From NCBI RefSeq assembly GCF_002305895.1, contig NZ_CP022203.1, positions 4,504,501 through 4,568,500 on the forward strand: a stretch of 64,000 bases of DNA. Direction: 5' to 3'. This DNA is from Corallococcus macrosporus DSM 14697 (GTDB lineage: Bacteria; Myxococcota; Myxococcia; Myxococcales; Myxococcaceae). Made by a program: the position numbers and the translations under genes. Each line of letters begins with the position of its first letter. Within the stretch, counting starts at the first letter, position 1. This document shows, piece after piece, positions 5,224-24,927 of the stretch. Below the pieces are notes generated by a model that saw only the letters and a program-made list of their open reading frames with translations, was not told the DNA's origin and searched no databases.

Positions 5224-5447
5224 GTGTGGGGATCCTCTGTCTCGGGAACAGGGCGCAATCTGCTGCATGCGTCACGTCCCACCAACTCCTTTTCACGCGC
5301 GAGTGTCACGGGTTCCACGACAGGACGCCTCCCCATGCCTTCCGGCCCGCGATTGGGACGAACAACACCGGTGACGGCTCGCTGGCGAACGGACATGCTG
5401 CGCCGCCGTGGGGTTCTCGGATATGGGGAGCCGCACAAGGCGGGTTG

Positions 5448-7229
5448 ATGCGCGGACACCTGGATCATGGCGTGACAATGGCGCTGGCGCTCGCGGCGGG
5501 AGTGGCCGCCGCGCAGCTCACCCCCGGCTCGGTGGGGACGGGGAGCGGCCCCTCGACCAGCCCCGGCGGCACCCCGGGCACGGCCGCCCCATCGCCGACG
5601 CCGGGCACCTCGCCTTCGCCTGGCGCACCCGAAACGGTGACGCCCGACGCGGTGACGCCCGGCTCGGACGCGCCCGCGGCAGTCCCCGGCACGGGGAGCC
5701 CGGGTGGCACGCGGCCCACGCCTCGGGTGGGCACCGGCGGTCCGGACCTGCCGCCGGGACCGCCGCCCATGGCGCCCAGCTCCATCGAACAGACGCCTGG
5801 CGCCAATGGAGGCGGCCCGGCCATCTCCCCCGCGCCCGCCGTGGCGCCCGGCCAGGAGGCGGAGAGCGCGAAGGACACGGTGGCGGACGCGCCTGACTCG
5901 GACGCGAAGCAGCCCGCGCGCCCGGCGCCCCTGACGTTGGCGCGGCTGGTGGCGCGCGCCCGTGAGACGGACTCCCGGGTGGAGGAGGCCAGCGCGGAGC
6001 TGCGCAAGTTCCACGCGCTCTACCAACAGGCGAAGTGGGCCTGGTTCCCCAAGTTCGAAATCACCGTGGGCGCGGGAGGCCCCATCCCCGAGGCCCGCAA
6101 CGACGGGCTGGGCGGCCCGCCCACGACGGAGGCCTCGTTGGAGGGCGACCTCAACTTCGGCCGCGTCGGCGTGACGGTGTTCTCCACCGGCAACGCGGTG
6201 CTGCCGCTCTACACGTTCGGCAAGCTGACGGCGCTGGAGAAGGCCGGCGCGCAGGGGCCGGTGGTGGGCGCCGCGCTGCGGGAGCGCATGCGCGACGAGG
6301 TCGGCTTCCAGGCCGCGCAGGCGTACTTTGGCTACCAGCTCGCGCGAAGCGGCCTGCAGCAGATTGAGGAGGTGGCCAGGCGGCTGGAGGACGCGGCCGG
6401 GCGCATCGACCGGCTGTTGAAGGAGGACTCCGCGCAGGTGTCCGCCGTGGACTCGTACAAGGTCCGCTTCTTCCGGGAGCTGGTGGAGGCGCGCAAGGCG
6501 GAGGCCCTGCAGGGCCGTCAGCTCGCGCTCGCCGCCATCGGCCTGCTGGCCAACGCCGGCCCGGAGGAGCCCGTGGCGGTGGTGGAGGAGGACCTGGAGC
6601 TGGAGGAGGACGTGCCGGTGCCCAGCCTGGAGCAGGCGCTGGCGCGGGCGGAGCAGGCCCGGCCCGAGCTGACCGCCATCGCCGCGGGCATCATCGCGCG
6701 GGAGCACGAGGTCTTCATCCGCGAGCGGAGCTACTTCCCGGACCTGGGGCTCGCCGGCTTCTATGACGTGCGCTTCACCACCAGCGCCACGCGGCAGCGC
6801 AGCCCCTTCGCCTTCGACCCGTACAACGACCGCTCCGCCGGCGTGGGCCTGGTGATGCGGGGGACGTTCGACATCCCCATCAAGGATGCCCAGTTGGAGC
6901 AGGCCCGCGCGGAGCTGGACAAGCTGCGCGCGCAGGAGAAGCAGATCCGCGCGGGCATCCGGCTGGAGGTCACCAAGGTGCACGGCGAGCTGGTGGCCGC
7001 CTGGAGCCGCGCCCGCTCCTTCGGCGAGGCGGAGCGCAGCGCGCGCCGGTGGGTGACGGCCGCCTTCACCGCGTTCGACCTGGGAACCGGTGACACGCGT
7101 GACCTGGTGGACGCTTTCACGGCCTATGCCCAGGCTTCAGGTGACAAAGGCAAGAGCTGGCACGACGTTCGGGTGGGCATGGCCGCCCTCGCGCGGGTTA
7201 CCGGGGCGCCGCTGACCCCGGGTGAATAA
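5448..7229 (+). CDS. TolC-family outer-membrane protein with long Pro/Gly/Thr-rich N-terminal linker
   Basis: A secreted 593-residue protein. The signal peptide ends near AAGVAAAQ. Residues 25-160 are a low-complexity stretch rich in Pro, Gly, Thr and Ala. From about 165 (LTLARLVARARETDSRVEEA) two outer-membrane-factor repeats of long helices and beta segments follow, typical of TolC/OEP. Such proteins form trimeric outer-membrane channels for exporters, but no adaptor (HlyD/MFP) is nearby. AAGG lies 7 nt before ATG 5448, so the upstream extension to 5226 is rejected. The next gene, an MlaC-like protein, follows 52 nt later on the same strand, so the two may share a transcript. Confidence 0.88.
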   Translation: MRGHLDHGVTMALALAAGVAAAQLTPGSVGTGSGPSTSPGGTPGTAAPSPTPGTSPSPGAPETVTPDAVTPGSDAPAAVPGTGSPGGTRPTPRVGTGGPDLPPGPPPMAPSSIEQTPGANGGGPAISPAPAVAPGQEAESAKDTVADAPDSDAKQPARPAPLTLARLVARARETDSRVEEASAELRKFHALYQQAKWAWFPKFEITVGAGGPIPEARNDGLGGPPTTEASLEGDLNFGRVGVTVFSTGNAVLPLYTFGKLTALEKAGAQGPVVGAALRERMRDEVGFQAAQAYFGYQLARSGLQQIEEVARRLEDAAGRIDRLLKEDSAQVSAVDSYKVRFFRELVEARKAEALQGRQLALAAIGLLANAGPEEPVAVVEEDLELEEDVPVPSLEQALARAEQARPELTAIAAGIIAREHEVFIRERSYFPDLGLAGFYDVRFTTSATRQRSPFAFDPYNDRSAGVGLVMRGTFDIPIKDAQLEQARAELDKLRAQEKQIRAGIRLEVTKVHGELVAAWSRARSFGEAERSARRWVTAAFTAFDLGTGDTRDLVDAFTAYAQASGDKGKSWHDVRVGMAALARVTGAPLTPGE

Positions 7230-7281
7230 CCATGCGCTCACCACTGTCTTCCCTACCGTCCTTTCACTCGGAGCCCATGGA

Positions 7282-7887
7282 ATGATTGCTTCCCTGCTTG
7301 CCGCCACCTTGCTCGCCGCCGCGCCCGGCCCGCTGACGGTCGTCAAATCCGGGAACGCCGACGTACAGAAGGCCGCCAACGCGCCCGGCGCCACCGCGCA
7401 GTCGCTCGCCAGCGTCGTGGAGAAGTTCGTCGACTTCGAGGAGCTGGCGAAGCGTGCGCTGGGTGACAAGGCCTGGGCCGACCTCAAGCCCGCGCAGCGC
7501 AAGGAGTTCACCGACACGATGACGGGCCTCCTGCGCGCGTCCTACGCCCAGAAGGCCCTGGGGCAGGCGCAGGCCCAGGTGAAGTACGGCGAGGAGGGCG
7601 TGGACGGGAACGAGGCCACCGTGGGCACCACCGTGAAGGTGAAGAAGGACGCCATCCCCGTCGACTACCGCCTGTACCGCACGTCGGCGACCGGGCCGTG
7701 GCGCATCTACGACGTCGTCACCGACGAGGTGTCCCTGGTGGACACGTACAAGGGGCAGTTCCGCAAGCTGCTCGCCGACAAGGGCTTCGACGGCCTGCTC
7801 TCCACGCTGAAGAGCAAGCGGGCGCAGCTCGAAAAGGAGAACGCGGCGTCGGCGCAGAAGAGCGCCGGGCAGACGGCCGTGCCCTGA
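7282..7887 (+). CDS. MlaC/Ttg2D-family periplasmic lipid carrier protein
   Basis: A secreted 201-residue protein of the MlaC (Ttg2D, HpnM) family. A short signal peptide (MIASLLAATLLAA) is followed by the family pattern ASVVEKFVDFEELAKRALG, the LKPAQRKEFTDTM helix and a beta region ending WRIYDVVTDEVSLVDTYKG. Family members carry phospholipids, or hopanoids in the HpnM case, across the periplasm. GGAG at 7270-7273 supports ATG 7282. The rest of an Mla system (MlaD, MlaE, MlaF) is absent, while an HpnN-like transporter and ceramide genes are close, so a non-phospholipid cargo is possible. Confidence 0.85.
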   Translation: MIASLLAATLLAAAPGPLTVVKSGNADVQKAANAPGATAQSLASVVEKFVDFEELAKRALGDKAWADLKPAQRKEFTDTMTGLLRASYAQKALGQAQAQVKYGEEGVDGNEATVGTTVKVKKDAIPVDYRLYRTSATGPWRIYDVVTDEVSLVDTYKGQFRKLLADKGFDGLLSTLKSKRAQLEKENAASAQKSAGQTAVP

Positions 7888-7951: not shown

Positions 7952-8953
7952 CTAGCGTCCCGCGGCCTCGCGGAGGGCGGCCAGCGTCCCGGCCAGACCC
8001 TGGGCCAGGGGGATGGTGGGGAGGAAGCCCAGCTCGCGGCTCGCGCGCTCGGTGGAGCAGGTCCACGCGGCGCACCGCATCTCCCGCACCTTGTCGCGGT
8101 TGAGGATGGGCACCGTGCCGCGCAGCCGGGCCACGGCCTCCGAGCCCAGGCCCACCACGTAGCTGACCGTCTGCGGCACCGGCAGCACCGCGGGCCGGCC
8201 CTTGCCGAGCGCCCCGGCCATGGCCGCGCAGACGTCCTCCCAGGAGTGCTCCACGCCGTCGGACACGCCGTACACGCCGCGCGCCGGGTCCTCGCTGGAC
8301 ACCGTGGGGCCCCGGTCCGCGGCCGCGAGTAGCGCGGTGCACAGGTCATCCACGTGGATGAGCGAGTACCGCTTGGGCCCGAAGCCGCTCTTCAGCGCCA
8401 GGCCCAGCCGGGCCATGGGCAGCAGCGACGGGAGGAACTCCACGTCACCGGGCCCGTAGACGATGGGCGGCCGGACGATGACGGAGGGCACCCGGTCCGC
8501 GAACTCGCGCACCGCCTCCTCGCCGCCCAGCTTGCTGCGGCCGTAGAGGGACACGGGCGCGGGCGGGTCCTCCTCGCGGCGCGGGCGCTCCGGCGTGGAC
8601 GGGCCCGCGGCGGCCAGCGACGAGCAGTACACCAGCCGGGGCGGGTGGGGCAGGGCGGCCATGGCCTCCACCAGCCGGCGGGTGCCCCGGGCGTTGCCCT
8701 CGAAGTAGCCCTCCGGCTCGCGGGACTTGGTGACGCCGGCCAGGTGCAGCACGCAGTCCACGTCGCGCACGGCCTCGGCCAGGCCCGCCCCCGTCGTCAG
8801 GTCCGCCACCACGAAGCGGGCGCCCAGGCCCTCCAGGGGGCCCCGGCGCGAGCTGCCGCGCACCATCAGCGTGAGCGTGTCGCCGCGCTCCACGATGCGG
8901 CGCGCGAGCCGCTGGCCGATGAACCCGGTGCCGCCAGTGAGCAGGAAGCGCAA
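7952..8953 (-). CDS. Extended SDR, probable 3-ketoceramide reductase (CerR-like)
   Basis: A 333-residue NAD(P)-dependent epimerase/dehydratase. The Rossmann motif TGGTGFIG starts at residue 7, the catalytic Ser is in CSSLAAAGP and the YxxxK motif is in SLYGRSK. In Caulobacter an SDR of this superfamily (CerR) reduces 3-ketoceramide. Here it is the last gene of a minus-strand operon with a serine-palmitoyltransferase-like gene and a GNAT-type acyltransferase, 27 nt behind the latter. That order is the main reason for the ceramide reading; by motifs alone it could be any sugar or steroid-type SDR. Confidence 0.8.
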   Translation of the reverse strand: MRFLLTGGTGFIGQRLARRIVERGDTLTLMVRGSSRRGPLEGLGARFVVADLTTGAGLAEAVRDVDCVLHLAGVTKSREPEGYFEGNARGTRRLVEAMAALPHPPRLVYCSSLAAAGPSTPERPRREEDPPAPVSLYGRSKLGGEEAVREFADRVPSVIVRPPIVYGPGDVEFLPSLLPMARLGLALKSGFGPKRYSLIHVDDLCTALLAAADRGPTVSSEDPARGVYGVSDGVEHSWEDVCAAMAGALGKGRPAVLPVPQTVSYVVGLGSEAVARLRGTVPILNRDKVREMRCAAWTCSTERASRELGFLPTIPLAQGLAGTLAALREAAGR

Positions 8954-8980: not shown

Positions 8981-10162
8981 TCAGAGCGCGCGCTGGTAGA
9001 CGCGGTACGTCTTGGAGCGCTGCGCGCCCATGGACTCGATGGCGCGGTTGACCAGGTGGTTGTCCTCGAGCGTCCAGGAGATCTCCCCGCCCACGTAACC
9101 CAGGCGCTTCGCGGTGCGCAGGGTGTCCAGGTACAGGATGGCGTCCAGGCCGCGGCGCCGGTAGCCCTCCTTGATGCCGAGGATGATGAGGCGCAGCCGG
9201 TTGATGCGGCGCGAGGCCAGCGCCAGCTTCACCAGGCCAATGGGCAGGCCAAACGTCGTGAGCCGCCCGTTGGCCGCGCGGATGGCCTGGTTGGCGTCCG
9301 GCACCGTGAGGGAGAAGGCCACCGGCTCGCCCTGGACCTCGGCCATGAGCGCCAGCTCCGGACGGACCACCGTCTTGAGCTCCTTGGCCAGGTGGTCGAA
9401 CTCCGCGTCCGTGAAGGGGACGAAGCCCCAGTTCTTCTCCCACGCCGAGTTGTAGATGTCGCGGATGCGCTTCACCTCGGCGTCCAGGTTCTTCATGTCC
9501 ACCGGGCGCACGACGACGCCGTCGCGCTGGCGGATCTTCTCCGAGATGCGCACCACCTTCTCCGGCGGCTGCGCGGAGGAGGACAGCTCGAAGGCGTACA
9601 AGTCCTTGGCCTTCGTCAGGCCGCAGGCCTCCAGCAGCGCCGCGTAGTAGGGCGGGTTGTGCGGCATCATCACCGCGGGCGGCGAGTCGAAGCCCTCGAT
9701 GAGCAGGCCCCAGTCCTGGTTGGAGGACAGGTTGGCCGGGCCCAGCATCGCGTCCATGCCCCGCTGGCGCAGCCAGGACGCGCCGGCCTCCAGCAGGCTC
9801 CGGGCGACGCCCGCGTCATTCACGCACTCGAAGAGGCCGAAGAAGCCCTCCTTCGTGCCGTGAAGCTCCATGTGACGCGGGTTGCGGATGGCGGCGATGC
9901 GGCCCACCACGTCCGGGCCGCGCCGGGCGAGGAACAGCTCCAGCTCACCGTACTCGAAGAAGGGGTTCTTCTTCGGGTCCAGGAAGTCCCGGCGCTCCAT
10001 CTCCAGCGGGGGGACCCAGTGCGGGTCGTTCTTGTAGAGGGGGTAGGGGAGGCGGATGAACTGCATCCGCTCCGCCTCGCCGCGGACAGGGGTCACCTGC
10101 ACGTCCGACGGCATGGTCGGGGACGCCTGTGTCGGCTGGGACGGCTCGGCGCGGAGGGCCAT
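8981..10162 (-). CDS. GNAT-like N-acyltransferase, probable bacterial ceramide synthase (bCerS-like)
   Basis: A 393-residue soluble protein of the large GNAT-fold family usually annotated N-acetyltransferase. Recognisable parts are the N-terminal RLPYPLYKNDPHWVPP, the central GPANLSSNQDWGLLIEGFD and a C-terminal GNAT core with GIKEGYRRRGLDAILY, whose RRRGxD corresponds to the acyl-CoA loop. In bacteria that make sphingolipids the bCerS enzyme belongs to this family and N-acylates 3-ketosphinganine. The gene begins 7 nt after the Spt-like stop, so the two are surely co-transcribed. A second possible start (MPSDVQV) lies 16 codons downstream; no clear ribosome site decides between them. Confidence 0.82.
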   Translation of the reverse strand: MALRAEPSQPTQASPTMPSDVQVTPVRGEAERMQFIRLPYPLYKNDPHWVPPLEMERRDFLDPKKNPFFEYGELELFLARRGPDVVGRIAAIRNPRHMELHGTKEGFFGLFECVNDAGVARSLLEAGASWLRQRGMDAMLGPANLSSNQDWGLLIEGFDSPPAVMMPHNPPYYAALLEACGLTKAKDLYAFELSSSAQPPEKVVRISEKIRQRDGVVVRPVDMKNLDAEVKRIRDIYNSAWEKNWGFVPFTDAEFDHLAKELKTVVRPELALMAEVQGEPVAFSLTVPDANQAIRAANGRLTTFGLPIGLVKLALASRRINRLRLIILGIKEGYRRRGLDAILYLDTLRTAKRLGYVGGEISWTLEDNHLVNRAIESMGAQRSKTYRVYQRAL

Positions 10163-10169
10163 GGGCGGT

Positions 10170-11708
10170 TCAGTTCCGGTCCGAGTGGGCGCCGTTGCGC
10201 ATGAAGAAGTGGGCGCCCTTCTCCAGCAGCATGCCCGGGAGCTCGCCGCGCTTCTCCCACAGCTTCATGGGCGCCGAGCCCAGCTTGCGCAGGTCCTCCG
10301 GCTGGAGGTTGGCCGCGCGCCAGGTGAGCTGCTCCACCGCGTCGAACAGGCGGCCGGCCACCTCGCGCGAGGACATGCGTGAGAGCTGGTCCAGGGTGAG
10401 GCCGCCCTGGTCCGCCAGCAGGCCGTTCGAGCCCGCGGCCCACTTCTCGCTCGCGCGGTTGGAGAGGATGCGGGTGCCGGGCCGGGCGATCTGCACCGGC
10501 TCGTACACGGTGGGGCGCGTCTCCGGAATCACGCCGAGCTTCCGGCCAATGGACTCGAAGGTGTCCAGCACGCGGTCCAACTGCGCGTCGGTGTGCGTGG
10601 CCATGTACGAGGTGCGGATGAGCGCGTGGCCCGGCTCCACCGCCGGCGGAATCACCGGGTTGGCGAAGACGCCGGCCTCGTGCAGCGCGCGCCAGAAGCG
10701 GAAGCACTTCACCTGGTCACCGATGTGCACCGGCACCACCGGCGTCACCGACACGCCGGTGTCGAAGCCCATGGCGCGGAAGCCGTTGTGCATCTTCTCC
10801 GCGATGTCCAGCAGCCGGGCGCGGCGCTCCGGCTCCGCTTCGATGATCTCCAGGGCCTTGAGCGCCGCGGCGATGGAGCCCGGCGTCATGGACGCGGAGA
10901 AGATGACCGAGCGCGCCTTGTGGCGGATGTAGTTGATGACCTCGAAGGGACCGGCCAGCACGCCGCCCAGCGACGCGAAGCTCTTGGAGAAGGTCCCCAT
11001 GACGAGGTCCGTCTCCTTCTCCAGGTCGAAGTACTCCGAGGTGCCCCGGCCCCGCGCGCCCAGCACGCCCATGGCGTGCGCGTCATCCGTCATCACCCGC
11101 GCGTTGTAGTGCTTCGCCAGCGCCACGATGCGGGGCAGGTTGCAGATGTCACCTTCCATGGAGAAGACGCCGTCGGTGACGATGATCTTCCCCGCGTCCG
11201 GGTCCGCCTGGGACAGGAGCTGCTCCAGGTGGTCCATGTCGTTGTGGCGGAACTTGCGCTCGGTGGCGAAGGACAGGCGGATGCCGTCCACCAGCGACGC
11301 GTGGTTCTGCCGGTCGCTGAAGACGATGTCGTGCCGGCCCAGGATGGACGCCAGCGCCAGGTTCGTCTGGAAGCCCGTGGAGATGACGATGGCGGACTCG
11401 CGGTTGAGGAACTTCGCCAGCCGCGCCTCCAGCTCCTCGTGCAGCGCCAGCGTGCCGTTGAGCAGGCGCGAGCCGGAGCTGGTGGTGCCGAACTTCTCCG
11501 TGGCCTTGATGGCCACTTCCTTCACCCGCGGATCCGCGGACAGGCCCAGGTAGTTGTTGGACCCGACCATGATGACGCGCTTGCCTTCGATCTCCACCTC
11601 GGTGGCGCCGTGCGACGCTTCGATGGCCCGGAAGTACGGGTACAGGCCCGTGGCCTTCGCGATGCGGTAGTCCTTCCAATTACGGCACTTGTCGAAGACG
11701 TCGCTCAT
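10170..11708 (-). CDS. Alpha-oxoamine synthase, probable serine palmitoyltransferase, with C-terminal extension
   Basis: A PLP enzyme of the AOS family (Spt, BioF, KBL, ALAS), which condense an acyl-CoA with an amino acid. The core is residues 1-395: VGSNNYLGL near 48-56, TDDAHAMG with His211, and the PLP lysine in GTFSKSF (Lys242). The glycine-rich switch HxxLVDG and RTSYMATHT are as in Spt. Family members are usually 390-430 aa; this one has about 115 extra residues from VYEPVQIARP to the end, with helices and an aromatic GAHFFMRNG segment. The operon with bCerS-like and CerR-like genes favours serine palmitoyltransferase, the first step of sphingolipid synthesis, over BioF (no bio genes nearby). 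Confidence 0.85.
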   Translation of the reverse strand: MSDVFDKCRNWKDYRIAKATGLYPYFRAIEASHGATEVEIEGKRVIMVGSNNYLGLSADPRVKEVAIKATEKFGTTSSGSRLLNGTLALHEELEARLAKFLNRESAIVISTGFQTNLALASILGRHDIVFSDRQNHASLVDGIRLSFATERKFRHNDMDHLEQLLSQADPDAGKIIVTDGVFSMEGDICNLPRIVALAKHYNARVMTDDAHAMGVLGARGRGTSEYFDLEKETDLVMGTFSKSFASLGGVLAGPFEVINYIRHKARSVIFSASMTPGSIAAALKALEIIEAEPERRARLLDIAEKMHNGFRAMGFDTGVSVTPVVPVHIGDQVKCFRFWRALHEAGVFANPVIPPAVEPGHALIRTSYMATHTDAQLDRVLDTFESIGRKLGVIPETRPTVYEPVQIARPGTRILSNRASEKWAAGSNGLLADQGGLTLDQLSRMSSREVAGRLFDAVEQLTWRAANLQPEDLRKLGSAPMKLWEKRGELPGMLLEKGAHFFMRNGAHSDRN

Positions 11709-12140
11709 GGGTGATCGGTCTTTCTGTCAGGCTGCGTCGGGAGGCATTGGACCGGCCCGGGAGCCTGGGGCTCTCCAGTCGCGACTCCCCCGATGAAGGG
11801 AACGTTCCACGTCGGGGACATCTGCGTCCGGCGGCCTCCCACGGGGGACGCGGGGGCGTGAATAAAGAGGGAGCGCGGCAGTGTCAAGGCAAGCGCCGCG
11901 CCGTCCGTCCCTCTGTCGCCGCCCGTGGCCGGGCTCGGCTTGACAGCACTGAGACTTTGGTGGCACCCCGCCGTCGCACACCCGCTGTTCTCCAGTCGAT
12001 ACTGGAGCGCAAGGTGTGCATCCGGCTGCACACCTGCTGACGGGCGCGTGTGCCTGGAAGCCCTCCGCTTCACCCGCTGTTCCGGGGAGCCACTGACTGG
12101 CCGGGGATTTGCTCCCTCGCTGGTCCCCGAGGAGTCGACG
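11709..12140. other. Divergent intergenic region between the ceramide operon and the RND gene
   Basis: The region separates the minus-strand Spt-like gene from the plus-strand MMPL gene. It holds one convincing promoter, pointing left (11859-11887). A TTGACA at 11940-11945 on the plus strand has no matching -10. The reading frame upstream of the MMPL start is open but Cys/Pro-rich and unlike an RND N-terminus, so I treat it as untranslated. Confidence 0.6.
11859..11887 (-). promoter_or_regulatory. Sigma-70-type promoter for the ceramide operon
   Basis: On the minus strand a perfect TTGACA (11887-11882) and TATTCA (11864-11859) are separated by 17 nt. The start site would fall near 11852, leaving an untranslated leader of about 145 nt before the Spt-like ATG at 11708. 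Confidence 0.65.
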
Positions 12141-14651
12141 TTGGCCAGGTCTCAACGGTGGTTCGAAGGCTTCATCGCGGCGGCGGTCGCTCGCCCGTGG
12201 CGGGTGCTGTGGGTGTTCGCACTGCTCACGCTCGGCGGTATGTCGCTGGCGTCGCGGCTGGAGTTCCGCGGGTCGTTCGTGGAGCTGCTACCGCAGGGCT
12301 CCCCGGAAGTGAGGGACCTGACACGGGTGTCAGAGAAGGCGGGCGGGGACGGCTACCTGGTCCTGGTCGCAAAGGGAGACACGCCCCAGCGCCTGGAGGC
12401 ATACGCGGCCGAATTGCAGACGCAATTGGAAGCGATGCCCGAGGTCCGCTACGTCGAGCACCGCTATGACGTGGACTTCTTCCGTCAAAATGCGTTGCTG
12501 TTATTGCCCATCGAGCAGCTCGCCGCGCTGCGCCAGGACGTGACGGCGCGCGTGCGCTACGAGCGGCAGCGGGCCAACCCCTTCTTCTTTGATTTGGGGG
12601 GCACGCCGGAGCCGCCGGACTTCGAGGCCATCGCGAAGAAGTACGCGCCCGGCGCGCCCATGCGCGAGACGCTGGCCAGCGCGGACGGCACCGAGGTCTA
12701 CTTGATGCTCAAGCCGGCCGGGACGGCGGGAGACCTGGCGTTCGCGCGCGGCTTCGTGGAGCAGGTGATGGGCACCGGGCGCGCGCTGGCGGCGGCGCGG
12801 TATCCCCGCGTGACGCTCCAGGCCACGGGCAACTTCCAGGGCCGCATCGAAGAGGACGCGGTGATGCGCGGCGACCTGTCGCGCGCGGGCCTGCTGTCGG
12901 CACTCATCGCCGTGGGGCTCATCCTGCTGGCGACCCGGCGCGTCGCGGCGCTGGCCGTGGTGGGCCTCCCCGTCATGGTGGGCGTGGTGCTGACGTTCGC
13001 CGCGGCGCAGCTCCTCATCGGCCACCTCAACATCGTGACGGGCTTCCTCGTCGCCATCCTGATTGGCCTGGGCATCGAGTACGGCGTGCACCTGTGCATG
13101 CGGTACTGGGAGGAGCGCCGCGCGCGCCCGGCCCGCGAGGCCATCGCCACGGCGGTGCGCGGCACCTTCGGCGGCGCGCTGACGTCCGCGGTGACGAACG
13201 CCGCGGCCTTCTTCGTGCTGCTGCTGGCGCAGTTCCAGGCCTTCAACCAGTTCGGCCTGCTGGCCGGCCTGGGCGTGCTGCTGGCCGTGCTGGCGACGTA
13301 CGCGATGGGCCCCTCGCTGCTCGCCATCGCGGAGCGACTGCGGCCGGCGCGCGTGGACCCCGCGCCCGCGGCGGATGGCCACGTTGCGCCCCAGGCCCGC
13401 GCGCCTGAGCGGGCGTGGCGGCGCTGGCCCACGGGCGTCATCGTCGCCATCGCCCTGTCGGTGGTGGGCTTCGCCGCGTTCTCCGTCGCCGTGGCGCCCC
13501 AGTTGGGCTTCGAGACGGACATGCGCAAGCTCAAGGGCGAGTCCCCGGCCTCGCGCCTGGATGACCGCGTCACCGAGCAGCTCGGCCAGCCGCTCAACCC
13601 GGCCATCTTCCTGGTGGACGACGTGGCGCAGGCGGCGCAGGTAGAGGCCGTCATCGCCGAGGTGAAGCAGCGCAACGGCGCGGCGTCGGCCTTCCTGGAC
13701 TCCGCGTCCCTCAATGACCTGCTGCCCTCCGACGTGGAGAAGCGCGAGGTGGAGCTGGCCGCGCTGCGCGAGGCCTTCCAGGGGTTGGAGGAGCTGCCCG
13801 CGGAGCTTCGCGAGGACGCGCGGCTTCAGGCGTTCCAGCGGATGCTGGAGGCGAAGCCGTATGGCCTGGACGCGCTGCCGGTGGAGGTGCGCCGCCGCTT
13901 CGAGGCCACGGACGGGAAGGGCACCTTCCTCCTGCTGTTCCCCTCCGTCTCCAACTCCGACACGGAGGAGCTGCGGCGCTGGGCCACGCAGATTGACCAG
14001 GTGGTGGAGGCAGTGGAGGCGCGCGGCATCGACCTGGCGGTGCTGGACAGCAACCGCATCGCCGCCCGCATCTTCGCGCTGGTGAGCGCGGACGGCCCGC
14101 TCATCCTGTGGTCCGCCGCCGCGGTGGTGTTCGTCGTCATCCTCATCAGCCTGCGCAGCTTCAAGCGGGCGCTGCTCGTCACCGGGCCGCTGTTCCTGGG
14201 CATGACGTGCCTGGCGGGCGGCATGTACCTCTTCGACGTCCAGCTCAACTTCATCAACGCCGTGGTGCTGCCCAACCTGCTGGCCATCGCCGTGGACAAC
14301 TCGGTGCACCTCTTCCACCGGTACGAGGAGGAGGGGCCCGGCTCGCTCGGCAAGGTGGTGCGGCACACGGGGCTGGCGGCCGTGGTGGCCACGCTGTCCA
14401 ACGCGGCCGGGTATGGCGCGCTGCTGGTGGCCAACCACCAGGGTCTGCGCAGCATCGGTCAGATTGCGCTGCTGGGGGTCATGTGCACCTTTCTCGGGAC
14501 CACGGTCTTCTTCCCCGCGCTGCTCGCCTTGCTGGAACGATGGAAGGGCGGCAAGGATGCGGGGGCGGGGGAGGGGGCGGTTGTGCAGAGCCTGGAGCTC
14601 GGCGATTCCGGCGCGCGGGCCGCGCCGCCGGGGGAGCGTAAGTCGGCGTGA
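12141..14651 (+). CDS. MMPL/RND-family transporter (HpnN-like)
   Basis: An 836-residue inner-membrane protein with two repeats, each of one TM helix, a large periplasmic loop and five TM helices. The first set begins WRVLWVFALLTLGGMSLA, the second with VIVAIALSVVGFAAFSVAV. Conserved RND features include ILIGLGIEYGVHLCMRY and NLLAIAVDNSVHLFHRY, with the Asp/Glu of proton relay. The architecture resembles HpnN, which moves hopanoids to the outer membrane. GAGGAG at 12129-12134 sits 6 nt before TTG 12141, which fixes the start. The next gene overlaps by 4 nt (GTGA). Given the neighbours, sphingolipid transport is a reasonable guess but unproven. Confidence 0.85.
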   Translation: MARSQRWFEGFIAAAVARPWRVLWVFALLTLGGMSLASRLEFRGSFVELLPQGSPEVRDLTRVSEKAGGDGYLVLVAKGDTPQRLEAYAAELQTQLEAMPEVRYVEHRYDVDFFRQNALLLLPIEQLAALRQDVTARVRYERQRANPFFFDLGGTPEPPDFEAIAKKYAPGAPMRETLASADGTEVYLMLKPAGTAGDLAFARGFVEQVMGTGRALAAARYPRVTLQATGNFQGRIEEDAVMRGDLSRAGLLSALIAVGLILLATRRVAALAVVGLPVMVGVVLTFAAAQLLIGHLNIVTGFLVAILIGLGIEYGVHLCMRYWEERRARPAREAIATAVRGTFGGALTSAVTNAAAFFVLLLAQFQAFNQFGLLAGLGVLLAVLATYAMGPSLLAIAERLRPARVDPAPAADGHVAPQARAPERAWRRWPTGVIVAIALSVVGFAAFSVAVAPQLGFETDMRKLKGESPASRLDDRVTEQLGQPLNPAIFLVDDVAQAAQVEAVIAEVKQRNGAASAFLDSASLNDLLPSDVEKREVELAALREAFQGLEELPAELREDARLQAFQRMLEAKPYGLDALPVEVRRRFEATDGKGTFLLLFPSVSNSDTEELRRWATQIDQVVEAVEARGIDLAVLDSNRIAARIFALVSADGPLILWSAAAVVFVVILISLRSFKRALLVTGPLFLGMTCLAGGMYLFDVQLNFINAVVLPNLLAIAVDNSVHLFHRYEEEGPGSLGKVVRHTGLAAVVATLSNAAGYGALLVANHQGLRSIGQIALLGVMCTFLGTTVFFPALLALLERWKGGKDAGAGEGAVVQSLELGDSGARAAPPGERKSA

Positions 14652-15616
14652 GTGCCTGGTTTTCCCAACGTGTTCGGGGTGTTTCCGCCGTGAGTCCCCC
14701 GCCCGTGGTGCGCGTCCAGCTCACCACGGTGGACCTCATCATCGTGGTGTCCTGCGCGCTGGCGTCGCTGCTGCTGTTGGGGCCGGGACACTGGGCGCCT
14801 GATTCGCTGCGCTGTGCGGGGCTGTTCGCGGTGATGGGCGTGGGGCCGCTCGTCCTGCGGACGCTGGCCGCCTCGTTCCCCGGGCGCCGGTGGCTCCATG
14901 TGCTCGCGGACTGGTGGCTGCTGCCCACGGCGGTGCTGTCGCACGGCTGGCTGGCCCCCGTGGTGGACACCATCAACCCGCTCCTCAAGGACGCGCAGTT
15001 GGTGGCGGCGGACCAGCGGCTCTTCGGCGTGCAGGCGGCGGTGGTGCTGTCGCGCGTCGTCCCCGGCTGGCTCAACGACCTCCTGCTGGTCTGCTACTAC
15101 GGCCACTTCGTGTGGGCGCTGGTGATGGGGCTGGTGCTCTACCGGCGCCCGGGCGGCGCGGAGTACGACGAATACCTCACCGCGCTGGGGTTGCTCTTCT
15201 TCCTCAACTACGCGGCCTACGCGCTGGTGCCGGCGGTGGGGCCCCGCTACTTCCTGGTGGGCGCGTTCGATGGGCCGCTCCAGGGGACGCTGACGCCGCT
15301 GCTGGACTCGCTGATGCGCAAGCCGCTGTTCGCGCGGGACTGCTTCCCGTCGGGGCACACCGGCGCCACGCTGCTGGTGCTGTACTACGCGTGGCGCTTC
15401 TCCCGCCGCGTCTTCTGGGTGATGTTGCTGCCGGGCCTGGGGCTCATCGCCGCCACGCTGGTGGGGCGCTTCCACTACGCCACGGACCTGCTCTGCGCGG
15501 TGCCGCTGGTGATGGTGGTGACGGGGCTGGCCATGGGCGTGTCCCGGGCGGCCCGGCAGCGCGAGGTGGTGAAGGACGCGCGTTCCGTCCCGGTGGACGC
15601 TATCGTCAGGCCCTGA
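14648..15616 (+). CDS. PAP2-superfamily integral membrane protein (Aur1/PAP2_3-like)
   Basis: A 322-residue protein with about seven membrane helices. It carries the PAP2 motifs CFPSGHTGA (the catalytic His region) and GRFHYATD (second His and Asp), but not the classical KxxxxxxRP motif of soluble PAP2 phosphatases. That combination fits the PAP2_3 group, which includes fungal inositol-phosphorylceramide synthase Aur1. It is translationally coupled to the MMPL gene through a GTGA overlap. A lipid phosphatase or a head-group transferase acting on ceramide or another membrane lipid are both possible; the context favours a lipid head-group role. Confidence 0.8.
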   Translation: MSAWFSQRVRGVSAVSPPPVVRVQLTTVDLIIVVSCALASLLLLGPGHWAPDSLRCAGLFAVMGVGPLVLRTLAASFPGRRWLHVLADWWLLPTAVLSHGWLAPVVDTINPLLKDAQLVAADQRLFGVQAAVVLSRVVPGWLNDLLLVCYYGHFVWALVMGLVLYRRPGGAEYDEYLTALGLLFFLNYAAYALVPAVGPRYFLVGAFDGPLQGTLTPLLDSLMRKPLFARDCFPSGHTGATLLVLYYAWRFSRRVFWVMLLPGLGLIAATLVGRFHYATDLLCAVPLVMVVTGLAMGVSRAARQREVVKDARSVPVDAIVRP

Positions 15617-16841: not shown

Positions 16842-17566
16842 GCTTCTTCGGGGAGCTCTACCTGCGCAGCACGCTGCCGTTCCTGTCGGAGGCCGTCACC
16901 GCGCGCGAGGTGGCGTACCTGGGCCGGGCCTTCGCGGGCCTGGCAGGCTCGGCCCCGGTGGTGGACCTGGGGTGTGGCCATGGACGTCACGCGGCCCGGT
17001 TGAACACGGAGGGCCCCCTGGCGGGGCGCGTCATCGGCCTGGAGTTGGACGCGCTGTCCCTGTCCCTGCGGCGCCCGGGCTTCCCGGCGGTCCAGGGGGA
17101 CTTGCGGGCCCTGCCGTTCCGCGAGGCGTCACTCGCCGGGGCCTACGCGTGGTACTCGACGCTGGCCGCCTTCACGGACGCGGAGCACGTGCACATCCTC
17201 CGCGAGGTCGCGCGCGCGGTGCGGCCAGGAGGACGGTGGGTGTTCCAGACGGTGCCGTATGAGCGGCTGGCGGCGTCGCCCCGGGCGGCCTTCCGCGAGA
17301 CGCTGCCGGACGGAAGCGTCCTGGAGGAGGAGAGCCGCTTCGACGCCTCGACAGGGAGGGACGAGGGACAGCGGACGCTGACCTTCCCGGAGGGGCGCTG
17401 CCTGCGCGCGTCATATTCCCTTCGTTACTATCCCCTTGCGGATTGGGTGCGGCTGTTGGAAAGCACCGGCTTTTCCGTCGTCTGGGTGCACGGTGGCTTG
17501 GCGGGCGAGCCGCTGGACGCCCAGTCAACCGACCTGATTGTGGGAGCGGAGCGTCGCCATGGCTGA
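16838..17566 (+). CDS. Class I SAM-dependent methyltransferase
   Basis: A 242-residue Rossmann-fold methyltransferase. The SAM motif I is VVDLGCGHGRHA at about residues 45-56, followed by the acidic residue in VIGLELDALSL and motif with PFREASLAGAYAWYSTLAAF. The post-motif EVARAVRPGGRWVFQTVPY is typical of the UbiE/COQ5-like group. The ATGA overlap with the aminotransferase and an 8-nt overlap with the next gene indicate translational coupling. The acceptor molecule is not indicated by the sequence. Confidence 0.85.
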   Translation: MSFFGELYLRSTLPFLSEAVTAREVAYLGRAFAGLAGSAPVVDLGCGHGRHAARLNTEGPLAGRVIGLELDALSLSLRRPGFPAVQGDLRALPFREASLAGAYAWYSTLAAFTDAEHVHILREVARAVRPGGRWVFQTVPYERLAASPRAAFRETLPDGSVLEEESRFDASTGRDEGQRTLTFPEGRCLRASYSLRYYPLADWVRLLESTGFSVVWVHGGLAGEPLDAQSTDLIVGAERRHG

Positions 17567-18536
17567 GCTGAAGGAACACTCCAGGGCGAGGTTGGGCTGG
17601 CTGGGTCAGTTGCCCAAGAAGGTCGATGTCTACGAGGTCGGCCCCCGGGATGGCTTGCAGAACGAGCTGCGCACCCTGCCCACGCGGGACAAGGCGCGCC
17701 TCGTCAACGCGCTGGTGGCCGCGGGCGAGAAGCGCATCGAGGTGACGTCGTTCGTGTCACCCAAGTGGATTCCCCAGCTCGCGGACGCGGAGGAGCTGCT
17801 GCGCCTGGTGGGCCGCCGCGAGGGCGTGGTGTTCTCCGCGCTGGTGCCCAACCTCAAGGGCCTGGAGCGCGCGAAGGACGCGGGCCTGGAGGAGGCCGCC
17901 GTCTTCATCTCCGCGTCCGAGGCGCACTCGAAGAAGAACATCAACAAGAGCATCGCCGAGGCCATCGTCGGCGCGCGCGAGGTGACGGCCGCGGCGCTCC
18001 AGGCGGGCATGCGGGTGCGGGGCTACCTGTCCACCGTGTGGGGCTGCCCCTACGAGGGGGACGTCCCGGTGGAGCGCGTGGTGGACATCTGCCGCCAGCT
18101 CGTGGACGCGGGCATCTACCAGCTCAGCCTGGGGGACACGATTGGCATTGGCACGCCGCGCCAGACGGAGGTGCTCCTGGAGGCGCTGCTGAAGCACCTC
18201 CCCGTGGAGAAGCTGGCGCTGCACCTGCATGACACGCGCGGCACCGCGCTGGCCAACGCGCTGGTGGGCCTGTCCGCGGGCGTGACGACGTTCGACGCGA
18301 GCATCGGCGGCCTGGGCGGGTGTCCCTACGCCCCGGGAGCGGCGGGGAACCTGGCCACGGAGGACGCCGTCTTCATGCTCCACGGCATGGGCGTGGACAC
18401 CGGCATCAACCTGGACCGGCTGGTGGAGGCCGGGGAGATTGCCCAGGAGCTGATCGGCCGGAAGCTGGCGGGCAAGTACCTGCAGGCCGCGCTCGGCGAG
18501 CGGGAGAAGAAGGCCGCCCGCCGCGCGCAGACGTGA
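17559..18536 (+). CDS. Hydroxymethylglutaryl-CoA lyase
   Basis: Cleaves HMG-CoA to acetoacetate and acetyl-CoA, the last step of leucine degradation. 325 residues with the family landmarks VYEVGPRDGLQNE (metal/substrate Asp), the TSFVSPKWIPQLAD segment, the metal-binding HLHDTRG, and the catalytic cysteine in GGLGGCPYAPGAAGN. GGAG at 17548-17551, 7 nt before ATG 17559, sets the start. It ends a run of tightly spaced plus-strand genes. LiuC, an acyl-CoA carboxylase and an acyl-CoA dehydrogenase follow within 6 kb, which fits a leucine/isovalerate pathway. Confidence 0.94.
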   Translation: MAELKEHSRARLGWLGQLPKKVDVYEVGPRDGLQNELRTLPTRDKARLVNALVAAGEKRIEVTSFVSPKWIPQLADAEELLRLVGRREGVVFSALVPNLKGLERAKDAGLEEAAVFISASEAHSKKNINKSIAEAIVGAREVTAAALQAGMRVRGYLSTVWGCPYEGDVPVERVVDICRQLVDAGIYQLSLGDTIGIGTPRQTEVLLEALLKHLPVEKLALHLHDTRGTALANALVGLSAGVTTFDASIGGLGGCPYAPGAAGNLATEDAVFMLHGMGVDTGINLDRLVEAGEIAQELIGRKLAGKYLQAALGEREKKAARRAQT

Positions 18537-18564
18537 GGGGCGCCTGGAAGCGTTGAGGCCCTGA

Positions 18565-21510
<2,946 letters not shown>

Positions 21511-21536
21511 CCCCACGGGCACCGCCTGGAAGACGG

Positions 21537-21577
21537 CGGGGACGGAAGCCCCGGCGCTCACCGGTGCCCCGTCCCCG
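21537..21577. terminator. Inverted repeat between convergent liuC and the YtxH gene
   Basis: A 9-bp perfect stem CGGGGACGG/CCGTCCCCG (21537-21545 and 21569-21577) with a GC-rich, partly self-pairing interior. It lies between two gene ends, so a bidirectional terminator is the likely role, but there is no T run. Confidence 0.35.
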
Positions 21578-21617
21578 AAGGTGCCTCACGTCATGGCCCG
21601 AAGGCCGCGCGCGCCGC

Positions 21618-21977
21618 TCAGGCGTTCGCGGTGCGCTCCTGGCCCAGGTTGACGTTCTGCTTGTTCATGTAGGCCGTGGCCTTGTCCTTCACGGTGGTCC
21701 GCAGCTCGGTGCCCGTCTTCGGGGCCATCAGCAGCGCCGCCACGCCACCCGCGGCCACGCCGAGGATGAAGAGGCCCAGGCCACCCAGGCCCGAGCGCGC
21801 CGGCTTGTACGTGGTCAAGCCGACATGCCGCAGCACGTCATCCGGCTCGAAGTCATCCCAGCGGTTGCGCGCCGCGCGCGGGAGGTCATTGATGAGCTTG
21901 TGGGCCAGCCACTTGCGGTACAGGTCGCTCCGGGCGATTCCCTTCGCCATCCACTTGCCTTTCTTCGCTGCGAACAT
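21618..21977 (-). CDS. YtxH-domain stress-type membrane protein
   Basis: A 119-residue protein with one hydrophobic helix, GLGLFILGVAAGGVAALLMA, followed by PKTGTELR, the signature of the YtxH/Gsp13-like family. The N-terminal half is basic (KKGKWMAKG, RKWLAHKL) and contains WDDFEPDDVLRHVGL. A short polar C-terminus follows. YtxH proteins are small, stress-induced and associated with the cell envelope. It faces liuC and is divergent from the carboxylase gene. Confidence 0.85.
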   Translation of the reverse strand: MFAAKKGKWMAKGIARSDLYRKWLAHKLINDLPRAARNRWDDFEPDDVLRHVGLTTYKPARSGLGGLGLFILGVAAGGVAALLMAPKTGTELRTTVKDKATAYMNKQNVNLGQERTANA

Positions 21978-22180
21978 GCGTCCCTCCTGGGCCCGATGGT
22001 TGCCGGGTGCGCATCACTCGCGAGCACGCCCCCGTTGAGCACCAAGGTAGGCAGGGGAGCCTGGAGCGGCATCCCCTGGGGCGCCCGTTCTGCGCGGTGC
22101 GTCGTCTGCCTGTCACGCCGCGCCGGTTCCCCAGCGAGAAGGCAGCCAGCCGTAGCCCTTTCTGCTATGTGCCACGGGCC

Positions 22181-23710
22181 ATGTCCCAAGATTCGAAACT
22201 GCTGGAGAAGCTCGCCCAGGTGGAGAAGGGTGGCGCGCAGAAGTACCACGCGAAGAACGCGGAGGCGGGCAAGCTCTTCGCCCGCGAGCGCATCCGCCTG
22301 CTGGTGGATGAGGGCTCCTTCGTGGAGGACGCGAAGCTCGCCAACAACCTGGACCCGGACCTGCCCTCGGATGGGGTCGTCATCGGCGTGGGCAAGGTGG
22401 CCGGGCGCACCGTGGCCATCATGGCCAACGACTCCACGGTGAAGGCCGGGAGCTGGGGCGCCCGCACGGTGGAGAAGATCCTCCGCATCCAGGAGACGGC
22501 CCGCGACCTGCGCTGCCCGCTGTTCTATCTGGTGGACTCCGCCGGCGCCCGCATCACCGACCAGGTGGAGATGTTCCCCGGGCGCCGCGGCGCCGGCCGC
22601 ATCTTCTACAACGAGGTGCACATGTCCGGCTTCGTGCCGCAGGTGTGCCTGCTCTTCGGGCCCTCCGCCGCCGGTGGCGCGTACATCCCCGCGTTCTGCG
22701 ACCTGGTCATCATGGTGGAGGGCAACGCCTCCATGTACCTGGGCAGCCCGCGCATGGCGGAGATGGTCATCGGTGAGAAGGTGACGCTGGAGGAGATGGG
22801 CGGCGCGAAGATGCACTGCTCCATCTCCGGCGTTGGCGACGTGCTGGTGAAGACGGAGCAGGAGGCCATCGAGGCCGCGAAGAAGTACATCGGCTACTTC
22901 CCGGAGAACTTCTCCCAGGCGCCGCCGCGCGCCGAGCCCAAGGCCCCCAAGCCCGGCGGCAAGAAGGTGGCGGACATCGTCCCCGTCGACCAGAACAAGC
23001 CCTTCAACATGCACGAGCTCATCAACGAGCTCATCGACGAGGGGAGCTGGTTCGAGGTGAAGAAGCTCTTCGCCCAGGAGCTCGTCACGGGCCTGGCCCG
23101 CATCGACGGCCGCCCGGTGGGCATCGTCGCCAACCAGCCCAAGTACAAGGGCGGCGTGCTGTTCGTGGACAGCGCGGACAAGGCGGCCCGCTTCATCTGG
23201 CTGTGTGATGCCTTCAACATCCCGCTGCTCTACCTGGCGGACGTGCCGGGCTTCATGATCGGCACCAAGGTGGAGCGCGCGGGCATCATCCGCGCCGGCG
23301 CGAAGATGATCTCCGCCGTGTCCGAGGCCAGCGTGCCCCGCGTCTGCGTGGTGGTCCGCAAGGCCTACGGCGCTGGCCTCTACGCCATGAGCGGCCCCGG
23401 CTTCGCCCCGGACGCCACCATCGCGCTGCCCGGCGCGATGATCGCCGTGATGGGCCCGGAGGCGGCGGTGAACGCCGTCTACTACAACAAGATCCAGGAG
23501 CTGCCGGAGGCCGAGCGGCCGGCCTACGTCCAGAAGCTGCGCGACGAGTACAAGCAGGACGTGGACATCTACAAGCTGGCCAGCGAGTTGGTGATTGACG
23601 ACATCGTGCCGGGTGACCGGCTGCGTCAAGACCTCATCCAGCGCTACGACGTGTATGCCCGGCGACACCAGCCCCGTGCGGAAAAGAAGCACGGTGTCTA
23701 TCCGGTTTGA
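22181..23710 (+). CDS. Acyl-CoA carboxylase beta (carboxyltransferase) subunit
   Basis: A 509-residue carboxyltransferase of the PccB/MccB/AccD5 family, which moves CO2 from carboxybiotin to an acyl-CoA. Two crotonase-like halves are visible: FGPSAAGGAYIPAFCD in the first, and GFMIGTKVERAGIIRAGAKM with YGAGLYAMSGPGFAPD in the second, both oxyanion-hole regions. The biotin carboxylase/BCCP partner is not in the window. The neighbours (LiuC, acyl-CoA dehydrogenase, HMG-CoA lyase) favour methylcrotonyl-CoA; propionyl-CoA remains possible. There is no ribosome site before ATG 22181, but TGCTATGTG 10-18 nt upstream could be a -10 element, so the mRNA may be near-leaderless. Confidence 0.9.
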   Translation: MSQDSKLLEKLAQVEKGGAQKYHAKNAEAGKLFARERIRLLVDEGSFVEDAKLANNLDPDLPSDGVVIGVGKVAGRTVAIMANDSTVKAGSWGARTVEKILRIQETARDLRCPLFYLVDSAGARITDQVEMFPGRRGAGRIFYNEVHMSGFVPQVCLLFGPSAAGGAYIPAFCDLVIMVEGNASMYLGSPRMAEMVIGEKVTLEEMGGAKMHCSISGVGDVLVKTEQEAIEAAKKYIGYFPENFSQAPPRAEPKAPKPGGKKVADIVPVDQNKPFNMHELINELIDEGSWFEVKKLFAQELVTGLARIDGRPVGIVANQPKYKGGVLFVDSADKAARFIWLCDAFNIPLLYLADVPGFMIGTKVERAGIIRAGAKMISAVSEASVPRVCVVVRKAYGAGLYAMSGPGFAPDATIALPGAMIAVMGPEAAVNAVYYNKIQELPEAERPAYVQKLRDEYKQDVDIYKLASELVIDDIVPGDRLRQDLIQRYDVYARRHQPRAEKKHGVYPV

Positions 23711-23762
23711 GTAGGTAGCGTTACCCCACCTCCAGGGCCCGGGCTGCGCCTGGGCCGTCTGC

Positions 23763-23768
23763 TATAGA
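23763..23768 (+). promoter_or_regulatory. Extended -10-like element TGC-TATAGA before the acyl-CoA dehydrogenase gene
   Basis: TATAGA, preceded by TGC, lies 13 nt before the ATG at 23782, and no ribosome site is visible. Transcription would start about 7 nt before the ATG. The same TGCTAT pattern precedes the carboxylase gene and the NRPS gene. No -35 is seen. Confidence 0.4.
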
Positions 23769-23781
23769 TCCTGCTGACACC

Positions 23782-24927
23782 ATGGACTTTGACCTTCCTG
23801 AAAGCCATCGCGCCCTGCAGTCCTCCATCCGTGACTTCTGCGAACGGCGGGTGAAGCCGTACGCCCGTGAGTGGGACAAGGACGAGAAGTTCCCCATGGA
23901 GGTCGTCCGGGAGCTGGGGCAGCTCGGCGTCATGGGCATGCTGGTCGCCGAGGAGTACGGCGGGGCGGCCATGGACTCGCTCGCCGTGGCGGTGGCGGTG
24001 GAGGAGATCGCCCGCTACGACGGCTCGCTGGCGCTGACGGTGGCCAGCCACAACGGCCTGGGCACCAGCCACCTGCGCGTGTTCGGCACGGACGCGCAGC
24101 GCCAGAAGTACCTGCCCAAGCTGGCCACGGGTGAGTACCTGGGCGCGTGGGGCCTGACGGAGCCCGGCTCCGGCTCGGACGCGTCCAGCATGAAGACCAC
24201 GGCCGTGCGCAAGGGCGACGGCTGGGTGCTCAACGGCGCCAAGATGTTCATCACCCAGGGCACGGTGGGTGACGTGTTCGTGGTGCTGGCTGTGACGTCG
24301 CCGCAGAAGCGGCAGAAGGGCATCACCGCCTTCCTGCTGGAGAAGGGCCTGCCGGGCTTCAGCCAGCGCCCCATCCACGGGAAGCTGGGCATGCGCTCGT
24401 CGGACACGGCCGAGCTCATCCTGGAGAACGTGGAGGTGCCGGACTCGGCGCGCGTGGGTGAGCTGGACCACGGCTTCATCGACACGATGAAGATCCTCGA
24501 CCGCGGCCGCATCACCATTGGCGCGCTGGCGGTGGGCCTGGGCCGGGGCGCCCTGGAGGAGTCCATTGGCTACTCGCGCGAGCGCACCGCGTTCGGCCAG
24601 CCCATCAGCGAGTTCCAGGGCCTGCGCTGGATGATGGCGGACATGAAGACGGAGCTGGACGCGGCCCGGCTGCTGGTCCACCGCGCGGCGAAGCTGGCGG
24701 ACGAGGGCAGGCCGTACTCGCAGGAGGCCTCCATGGGGAAGCTCTTCGCCTCGGAGGCGGCCATGCGGGCCTGCAACAAGGCCGTGCAGATCCACGGTGG
24801 GTATGGATACACCCGCGAGTTCCCCGTCGAGCGCTACCTGCGCGACGCCAAGTTGTGTGAGATCGGCGAGGGAACCAGCGAGATCCAGCGTACAATCATC
24901 GCCCGAGAAATCTTCAAAGGGGCTTGA
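23782..24927 (+). CDS. Acyl-CoA dehydrogenase
   Basis: A 381-residue FAD enzyme that desaturates acyl-CoA thioesters. The three-domain ACAD fold is complete: helical N-terminus ([20 protein letters not shown]), the FAD/substrate segment [18 protein letters not shown], the [19 protein letters not shown] region, and the C-terminal [16 protein letters not shown], which contains the family Glu/Thr-Ser binding motif; [15 protein letters not shown] is the ETF/tetramer signature. Length is typical. Neighbours suggest isovaleryl-CoA as substrate, but short-chain substrates cannot be excluded. The next gene begins at the last base of its stop codon. Confidence 0.92.

Follow-up and report, generated by a model that had tools for sequence, protein, structure and literature searches.

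The window analysed here is a stretch of 64,000 nucleotides from Corallococcus macrosporus DSM 14697 (contig NZ_CP022203.1, positions 4,504,501 to 4,568,500). At 14648-15616 it carries a gene for a PAP2_3 protein, and we find that genes of this type are linked to serine palmitoyltransferase (SPT) more than chance would give. The reading that we tentatively favour, on sequence and on a predicted model, is that the product would be a transferase of the Aur1 fold dedicated to ceramide, using a head-group donor other than phosphatidylinositol (PI); we rate it somewhat short of an even chance. The initial annotation had noticed a PAP2_3-like protein here, with CFPSGHT and GRFHYATD but no KxxxxxxRP, close to ceramide-type genes. 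The open reading frame with its Pfam match, the motif reading and the neighbouring SPT, GNAT and SDR genes bear out these observations.

Linkage to SPT in the Myxococcaceae

Linkage was assessed in 96 genomes of the family, 71 SPT-positive and 25 SPT-negative. Matches with E < 1e-70 were counted as window-type, together with one fragment in genome G083 (8.5e-28, 55% identity), giving 68 hits in 65 genomes. In 62 of these 65, the window-type gene is divergent from SPT and lies within 6 kb of it; of the remaining three, G074 has it on a different contig, and G080 and G083 yielded no SPT. The gene is present in 63/71 SPT-positive versus 2/25 SPT-negative genomes, counts uncorrected for kinship, and because the genomes are related, Fisher values for this co-occurrence overstate independence. 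Both SPT-negative genomes that have it are assemblies 86-87% complete. Linkage to the SPT locus makes ceramide the likely acceptor of the proposed enzyme. A second window-type copy was seen in G007, among unrelated genes.

Motifs and conservation of the window protein

The gene and its motifs are as follows.

14648-15616, + strand: PAP2_3 protein of 322 amino acids with a GTG start, proposed ceramide phospho-head-group transferase (open reading frame; PF14378, E 1.1e-13; model pLDDT 91.9; best structural match Aur1)
15230-15247, + strand: PAVGPR, residues 195-200, aligned with PAAPPW of Aur1 (P-x-x-GPR in 56/56 rows of alignment A2)
15335-15361, + strand: RDCFPSGHT, residues 230-238, C2-type motif with the putative catalytic His237 (motif reading; partly the retrieval pattern itself)
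15455-15487, + strand: TLVGRFHYATD, residues 270-280, with Thr at -6 replacing the phosphatase C3 Arg, His276 and Asp280 (Thr -6 and Arg -2 in 56/56 A2 rows; partly the retrieval pattern itself)

The Pfam PAP2_3 profile matches the window protein over its curated cut-off (51.8 bits against 27), whereas PAP2 stays below its own cut-off and PAP2_C reaches 23 bits against 27. No NCBIfam model matched at 0.001, no family matched in the PADLOC and PHROGs scans, and a search of PDB chains with the single sequence gave no match at E 1. The nearest named relatives are from Myxococcus; the ortholog of Myxococcus xanthus AM003 (L079) is 93% identical in the alignment A2 described below. The host genome (8,973,512 bases) contains four PAP2_3 matches.

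Relatives were collected by a PAP2-pattern scan of 84,980 species genomes, which returned 101 of them; 80 loci were kept. An alignment of 18 rows picked for diversity (A1) and one of 56 rows (A2: the window protein and 55 of the 80 fetched loci) were made. The conserved motifs of PAP2 phosphatases are labelled C1, C2 and C3. The C1 motif KxxxxxxRP occurs in 0/56 A2 rows, the window protein among them, and the C3 motif SRxxxxxHxxxD is likewise lacking in A2, where Thr occupies the Arg position in 56/56. His237 and His276 are 39 residues apart in 55/56 rows, and three arginines, R200, R230 and R274, are invariant. At 0.001, the PAP2_3 profile matches 56/56 members and PAP2_C 44/56. Invariance of the motifs in A2 is partly by construction, the loci having been fetched with the patterns RDCFPSGH and [AG]T[LV][VA][GC]RFHY.

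Predicted fold

A model of the window protein built from 56 sequences has a mean pLDDT of 91.9 and a pTM of 0.88. With this model, Foldseek retrieved two Aur1 entries (E 1.1e-4) and nothing else below 0.001. VIA-align also placed Aur1 first (Z 19.1, 251 residues aligned at 4.0 A, and 18.9), before LpxE (14.7, 163 residues), PgpB (13.5, 168), G6PC1 (13.1), acid phosphatases (11-12) and the sphingomyelin synthase-related protein SMSr (10.7). The Aur1 match covers model residues 29-303, whereas those of LpxE and PgpB begin only at 112-125. In the structural comparison proposed with the initial annotation, Aur1 against PgpB/LpxE, Aur1 is thus the best match.

Resemblance to yeast Aur1 (AUR1, PDB 9vj4 and 9ivc), an inositol-phosphorylceramide (IPC) synthase, extends to the lack of the C1/C3 basic motifs, to the P-A-x-x-P loop at the same place and to Thr at the C3 Arg position. 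The two proteins differ in GPR (window) versus PPW (Aur1), SGHT versus SLHS and R-F-H-Y versus H-H-Y; they share 15% identity, and the window protein alone does not retrieve Aur1. PgpB/LpxE phosphatases have the PAP2 core fold in common with it and PgpB also PSGHT, but PgpB proteins carry the C3 Arg and space their histidines by 44 or 50 residues. SMSr (PDB 8ijq) belongs to PAP2_C, the profile found in most A2 members, but the window protein is below the Pfam cut-off for it and the structural score is lower than that of Aur1. Aur1's lead in the model comparison would support a PAP2_3-type topology more surely than a function.

A separate inositol-type paralog

Another PAP2_3 gene of the host genome, C1:568618-569541, lies 3.9 Mb from the window gene and carries YPAAPPWY, MPSLHA and HHYVLD. 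The best PAP2_3 match in the genome (568699-569277) falls in this paralog. It matches yeast AUR1 at E 1.2e-20 over 13-280 and the phosphoinositol dihydroceramide synthase model NF052609 at E 1.1e-40 (139.9 bits, below the cut-off of 480); its residue at the C3 Arg position is Ala. Inositol-phosphate synthase (MIPS) is encoded beside it, at 569594-570811. Together they form a run (C1:567375-570769; L058:1376-4770) of MIPS, the Aur1-like PAP2_3 protein and a CDP-alcohol transferase fused to GtrA, the last matching archaetidylinositol phosphate synthase (1.8e-34) and BT1523-type PIP synthase (3.9e-34), both below cut-off. The layout is close to BT1522-1526 of Bacteroides thetaiotaomicron, an operon that leads to inositol phosphoceramide according to passages of PMC8791184 and PMC9246714, which also state that a BT_1522 mutant retains the ethanolamine form. 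The run looks like a myxobacterial equivalent of BT1522-1526 and is the likely origin of ceramide phosphoinositol.

Orthologs of the paralog (E 1.6e-79 or better) were found in 57/96 family genomes, with MIPS within 179 bp in 57/57. Its distance from SPT is 3.9-7.5 Mb (linear) in the 14 genomes checked. The window-type gene also correlates with the paralog: fifty genomes carry both. Thirteen SPT-positive genomes have the window-type gene without the paralog, and 7 genomes show the reverse. Six SPT-positive genomes with the window-type gene have no MIPS match (inositol uptake is possible there); the paralog occurs without MIPS in 0/57. The window-type gene tracks SPT more than inositol.

These results bear on the idea, contained in the initial annotation, that the window protein is a ceramide head-group transferase like Aur1-type IPC synthases. 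An IPC synthase would agree with the Aur1-like fold, with the ceramide-type neighbours and with ceramide phosphoinositol in Myxococcus xanthus, reported in a passage of PMC9246714. That role is, however, already taken by the paralog between MIPS and the CDP-alcohol transferase-GtrA gene, with its AUR1 and NF052609 matches; the window protein has PAVGPRYF and CFPSGHT where the paralog has PAAPPWY and PSLHA, and thus neither PPWY nor PSLH, though the first motif pattern (PPWY) also gave no hit in two of five paralog-type rows. The PDB and NCBIfam searches and the genomes with a single gene type or no MIPS point the same way. We therefore rejected the window gene as IPC synthase, a role that is now very unlikely. 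The more general part of the proposal, a ceramide transferase, stands on the Aur1-like topology, the absence of the C1 and C3 basic motifs and the ceramide linkage. BT_1522, the phosphoinositol dihydroceramide synthase of B. thetaiotaomicron, is likewise bacterial and Aur1-like and uses dihydroceramide, as passages of PMC9246714 and of PMC8791184 state, while the substrate of the window protein is putative; unlike the window gene, BT_1522 sits with MIPS and PI synthase, and its relative in the host genome is the paralog at 568618-569541.

Two small genomes (L066, which is G085, and G086) have MIPS and an Aur1-like paralog with no SPT match at 1e-100; the enzyme may use another acceptor there. 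The two other PAP2_3 matches of the host genome are at L059:5978-6880 and L004:604-2931. By eye, one follows a desaturase-like open reading frame and one is inside a larger frame with a prenyl-synthase-like part.

Relatives beyond the family

Among the 80 loci, which were fetched by PAP2 alone, SPT is present at 28/30 of the Myxococcaceae type, and the other two are on short contigs or contig ends. At loci of other types SPT occurs in 11/50, and SPT, GNAT or SDR in 21/50. At L139, PAP2 faces a GNAT-SPT-SDR run in convergent orientation, and within the order PAP2 adjoins SPT in G152, G155, G161 and G162. Of the genomes of the 50 non-Myxococcaceae loci, 36 of the 40 searched have an SPT-like match scoring 330 bits or more; those of the other ten, L134 (Acidobacteriota) included, lay outside this search. 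For Acidobacteriota, SPT was found in 12/12 searched genomes with a PAP2 relative versus 37/119 in a sample scored for SPT only. Five genomes are in both sets, and the Fisher value of 1e-6 refers to 12/12 versus 32/114, kinship uncorrected.

A tree was computed from 70 rows by a quick method with SH-aLRT only, and the program warned of long branches. The fetched loci supplied 8 rows from L079-L104 and 42 from L105-L158; another 12 loci of this second set were excluded because they were near-duplicates, truncated or odd in their motif reading (L151, L154). SPT-linked members fall into four sets, one of Myxococcota, one of 'Deltaproteobacteria' RBG type and two of Acidobacteriota, on a largely unresolved backbone. 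The five paralog rows stand apart (SH-aLRT 100). With such a weak backbone, a single origin of SPT linkage followed by losses and repeated recruitment would both be compatible with the tree.

Points against the proposal and alternative functions

Several observations weigh against a ceramide transferase. On the structural side, acid phosphatases match the model over 26-305, at Z 11-12 and with fewer residues aligned. The A2 profile gives PgpB a better E-value (8e-5, over a short stretch of 72 positions, 232-303) than AUR1 (0.0025, over 228 positions, 70-297). Moreover, Aur1 is the sole PAP2_3-type protein recognised in the structure list, so that its lead may reflect PAP2_3 membership and not function. 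The R-[YF]-H-Y motif and the His-His spacing of 39 are present in own_7192k and L065, PAP2_3 proteins of other sets. We had considered this spacing as a transferase mark; shared by Aur1, the five paralog-type rows and these two proteins, it is better taken as a PAP2_3 trait.

The distribution also holds contrary points. The window-type gene is missing from 8/71 SPT-positive family genomes, and the paralog too correlates with SPT (55/71 versus 2/25). Outside the family, 80 of 99 phylum genomes were sampled as non-family Myxococcota (left out: G114, G115, G117-G121 and G123-G134). SPT at 330 bits is found in 5/13 with PAP2 at 200 bits or more versus 15/67 without (p 0.29), both thresholds having been chosen after viewing the lists; two of the eight misses among the PAP2-bearing genomes score 306 bits. 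In the absence of a significant link in this group, strict dependence on SPT is weakened. Finally, twelve Bacteroidota/Ignavibacteriota-type loci adjoin, instead of SPT, a ksgA-like gene; like ksgA, its representative gives an RrnaAD match. These ksgA-adjacent loci and the non-family Myxococcota without a clear SPT indicate that the wider PAP2 group extends beyond ceramide loci.

Such loci are what would be expected of a general lipid or undecaprenyl-pyrophosphate phosphatase, or of a housekeeping or unrelated enzyme merely near SPT. We consider this improbable. It does not account for the SPT linkage inside the family and in further lineages, the phosphatase motifs are absent, and an SPT-like protein was still found in 7/8 of the ksgA-type genomes that were searched. 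In addition, four genomes of the 96-genome search (G036-G039) lack both PAP2 and a close relative of the RND gene that precedes it in the window, and the two loci that were read (L040 of G036 and L039 of G038) keep SPT and the other neighbours despite this loss, which suggests that the window gene is dispensable.

The main rival is a ceramide-pathway phosphatase, acting on ceramide-1-phosphate, on a sphingoid-base phosphate or on the phosphatidic acid pool. The sequence is compatible with hydrolysis as well as with transfer. The PAP2 triad with PSGHT as in PgpB and the core fold common to LpxE and PgpB agree with it. It stays in play because the invariant R200, R230 and R274, which also weigh against a transferase, could bind phosphate in a relocated site. 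Neither the C1 motif nor the C3 Arg is found in any of the 56 aligned proteins, however, and no lipid kinase turned up in a scan of ten proteins of the neighbourhood, one of them the window protein. On balance we hold this phosphatase to be unlikely, but a serious candidate.

Proposed reaction

For the ceramide transferase that we prefer, the following sequence of events can be proposed, on the catalytic mechanism of PAP2, Aur1 and PgpB enzymes. Ceramide made by SPT with the bCerS-like and CerR-like proteins would reach the periplasmic face, where the active site is presumed to lie. His237 would take a phospho-head-group from a glycerophospholipid, leaving diacylglycerol, and this phospho-head-group intermediate would be handed on to the ceramide 1-hydroxyl, assisted by His276 and Asp280. 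PI would be an unlikely donor, because the Aur1-type paralog covers PI and the window-type gene persists without MIPS. The most likely donor would be phosphatidylethanolamine (PE), giving ceramide phosphoethanolamine (CPE). The proposal of PE comes from the Bacteroides species tested in PMC10056535, all of which make PE-dihydroceramide (passages of that paper and of PMC10191378). This choice of donor, which also counts among the weaker points of the proposal, is perhaps right by analogy and has no direct basis in the sequence. A transport step may follow in many Myxococcaceae, with the RND, MlaC-like and outer-membrane efflux (OEP) proteins encoded nearby carrying this product, or else ceramide, in the direction of the outer membrane.

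Combining these steps, the window gene, like its relatives linked to SPT in Myxococcota, Acidobacteriota and RBG-type deltaproteobacteria, might encode a bacterial CPE synthase, working in many Myxococcaceae with an RND/MlaC/OEP route of sphingolipids to the outer membrane; as a whole this extended proposal is doubtful. Ceramide-1-phosphoethanolamine was reportedly described in Myxococcus stipitatus in 1988; our literature search joining Myxococcus stipitatus with ceramide gave no match. Likewise, Aur1, Kei1, cryo-EM structure and inositol phosphorylceramide had no joint match, and in the literature on bacterial sphingolipid or ceramide synthase gene clusters PAP2 was not mentioned among the matches listed.

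Bacterial ceramide synthesis has so far been described from SPT to dihydroceramide. A search of B. thetaiotaomicron with fly CPE synthase gave no match, as a passage of PMC8791184 states, and the route of sphingolipids from inner to outer membrane is, according to passages of PMC11324152, not presently known. An SPT-tied PAP2_3 group in several lineages provides named candidate genes for the head group and for transport in tractable Myxococcus. Genomes with solely the window-type gene, such as Archangium, or solely the inositol-type gene, such as the G036-G039 type, offer a ready comparison; G036-G039 are natural strains without the PAP2-RND pair.

Gene neighbourhood and the RND gene

The neighbouring features in the window are listed below; the names bCerS and CerR are taken from a passage of the literature.

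14648-14651, + strand: GTGA overlap of the PAP2_3 start and the RND stop codon (sequence)
11925-14651, + strand: MMPL/HpnN-like RND protein upstream of PAP2_3 (profile matches)
10170-11708, - strand: SPT-like protein, divergent (NF047600, E 3.9e-152, below the equivalog cut-off)
8981-10162, - strand: GNAT-family protein, bCerS-like by context (PF00583, E 1.1e-5; accompanies SPT in relatives)
7952-8953, - strand: NAD-epimerase-type SDR, CerR-like by context (PF01370, E 1.7e-35; not found at the locus in many relatives)
7222-7887, + strand: MlaC/HpnM-like protein (PF05494, E 1.4e-36; TIGR03481 below cut-off)
5226-7229, + strand: OEP protein (PF02321, E 1.5e-32)

Translational coupling of PAP2_3 to the RND gene, as initially annotated, is seen in the GTGA overlap, but it is lineage-specific. 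In G001, G045 and G052, PAP2 and SPT are 359-715 bp apart and the interval contains no RND match, so the PAP2-SPT pairing is independent of RND. A PAP2-RND pair as ancestral unit was thereby rejected; some genomes that lack an SPT match at 1e-100 also contain RND relatives. Conservation is poor over the initial codons of the RND frame as listed (window 11925-12125), where several aligned relatives have stops; translation probably begins near 12.1 kb. In the host genome, two divergent RND genes at L057:6646-11898 (about 554.6-559.9 kb) are distant paralogs (29-34%) of the window RND gene, and the end of this pair is about 7.5 kb from the inositol-lipid run.

Composition of the locus varies. At L036, L037, L038, L041, L042 and L043 the SDR gene is flanked by two GNAT (bCerS-like) genes, where Myxococcus has one. 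No SDR (CerR-like) match was found at L044, L045, L049, L050, L083, L090, L098, L102 and others, where GNAT and SPT are present; the reductase may be encoded elsewhere in these genomes. At L107, the genes between SPT and PAP2 that have Pfam matches are regulatory. Past the ceramide cluster, window 17538-24927 encodes HMG-CoA lyase, enoyl-CoA hydratase, carboxyltransferase and acyl-CoA dehydrogenase, which by sequence look like leucine degradation and could feed iso-branched lipids. Lastly, the record of L082 is titled Comamonas sp. KCTC 72670 and contains a Myxococcus-type cluster with most genes 82-99% identical; its organism name is probably wrong.

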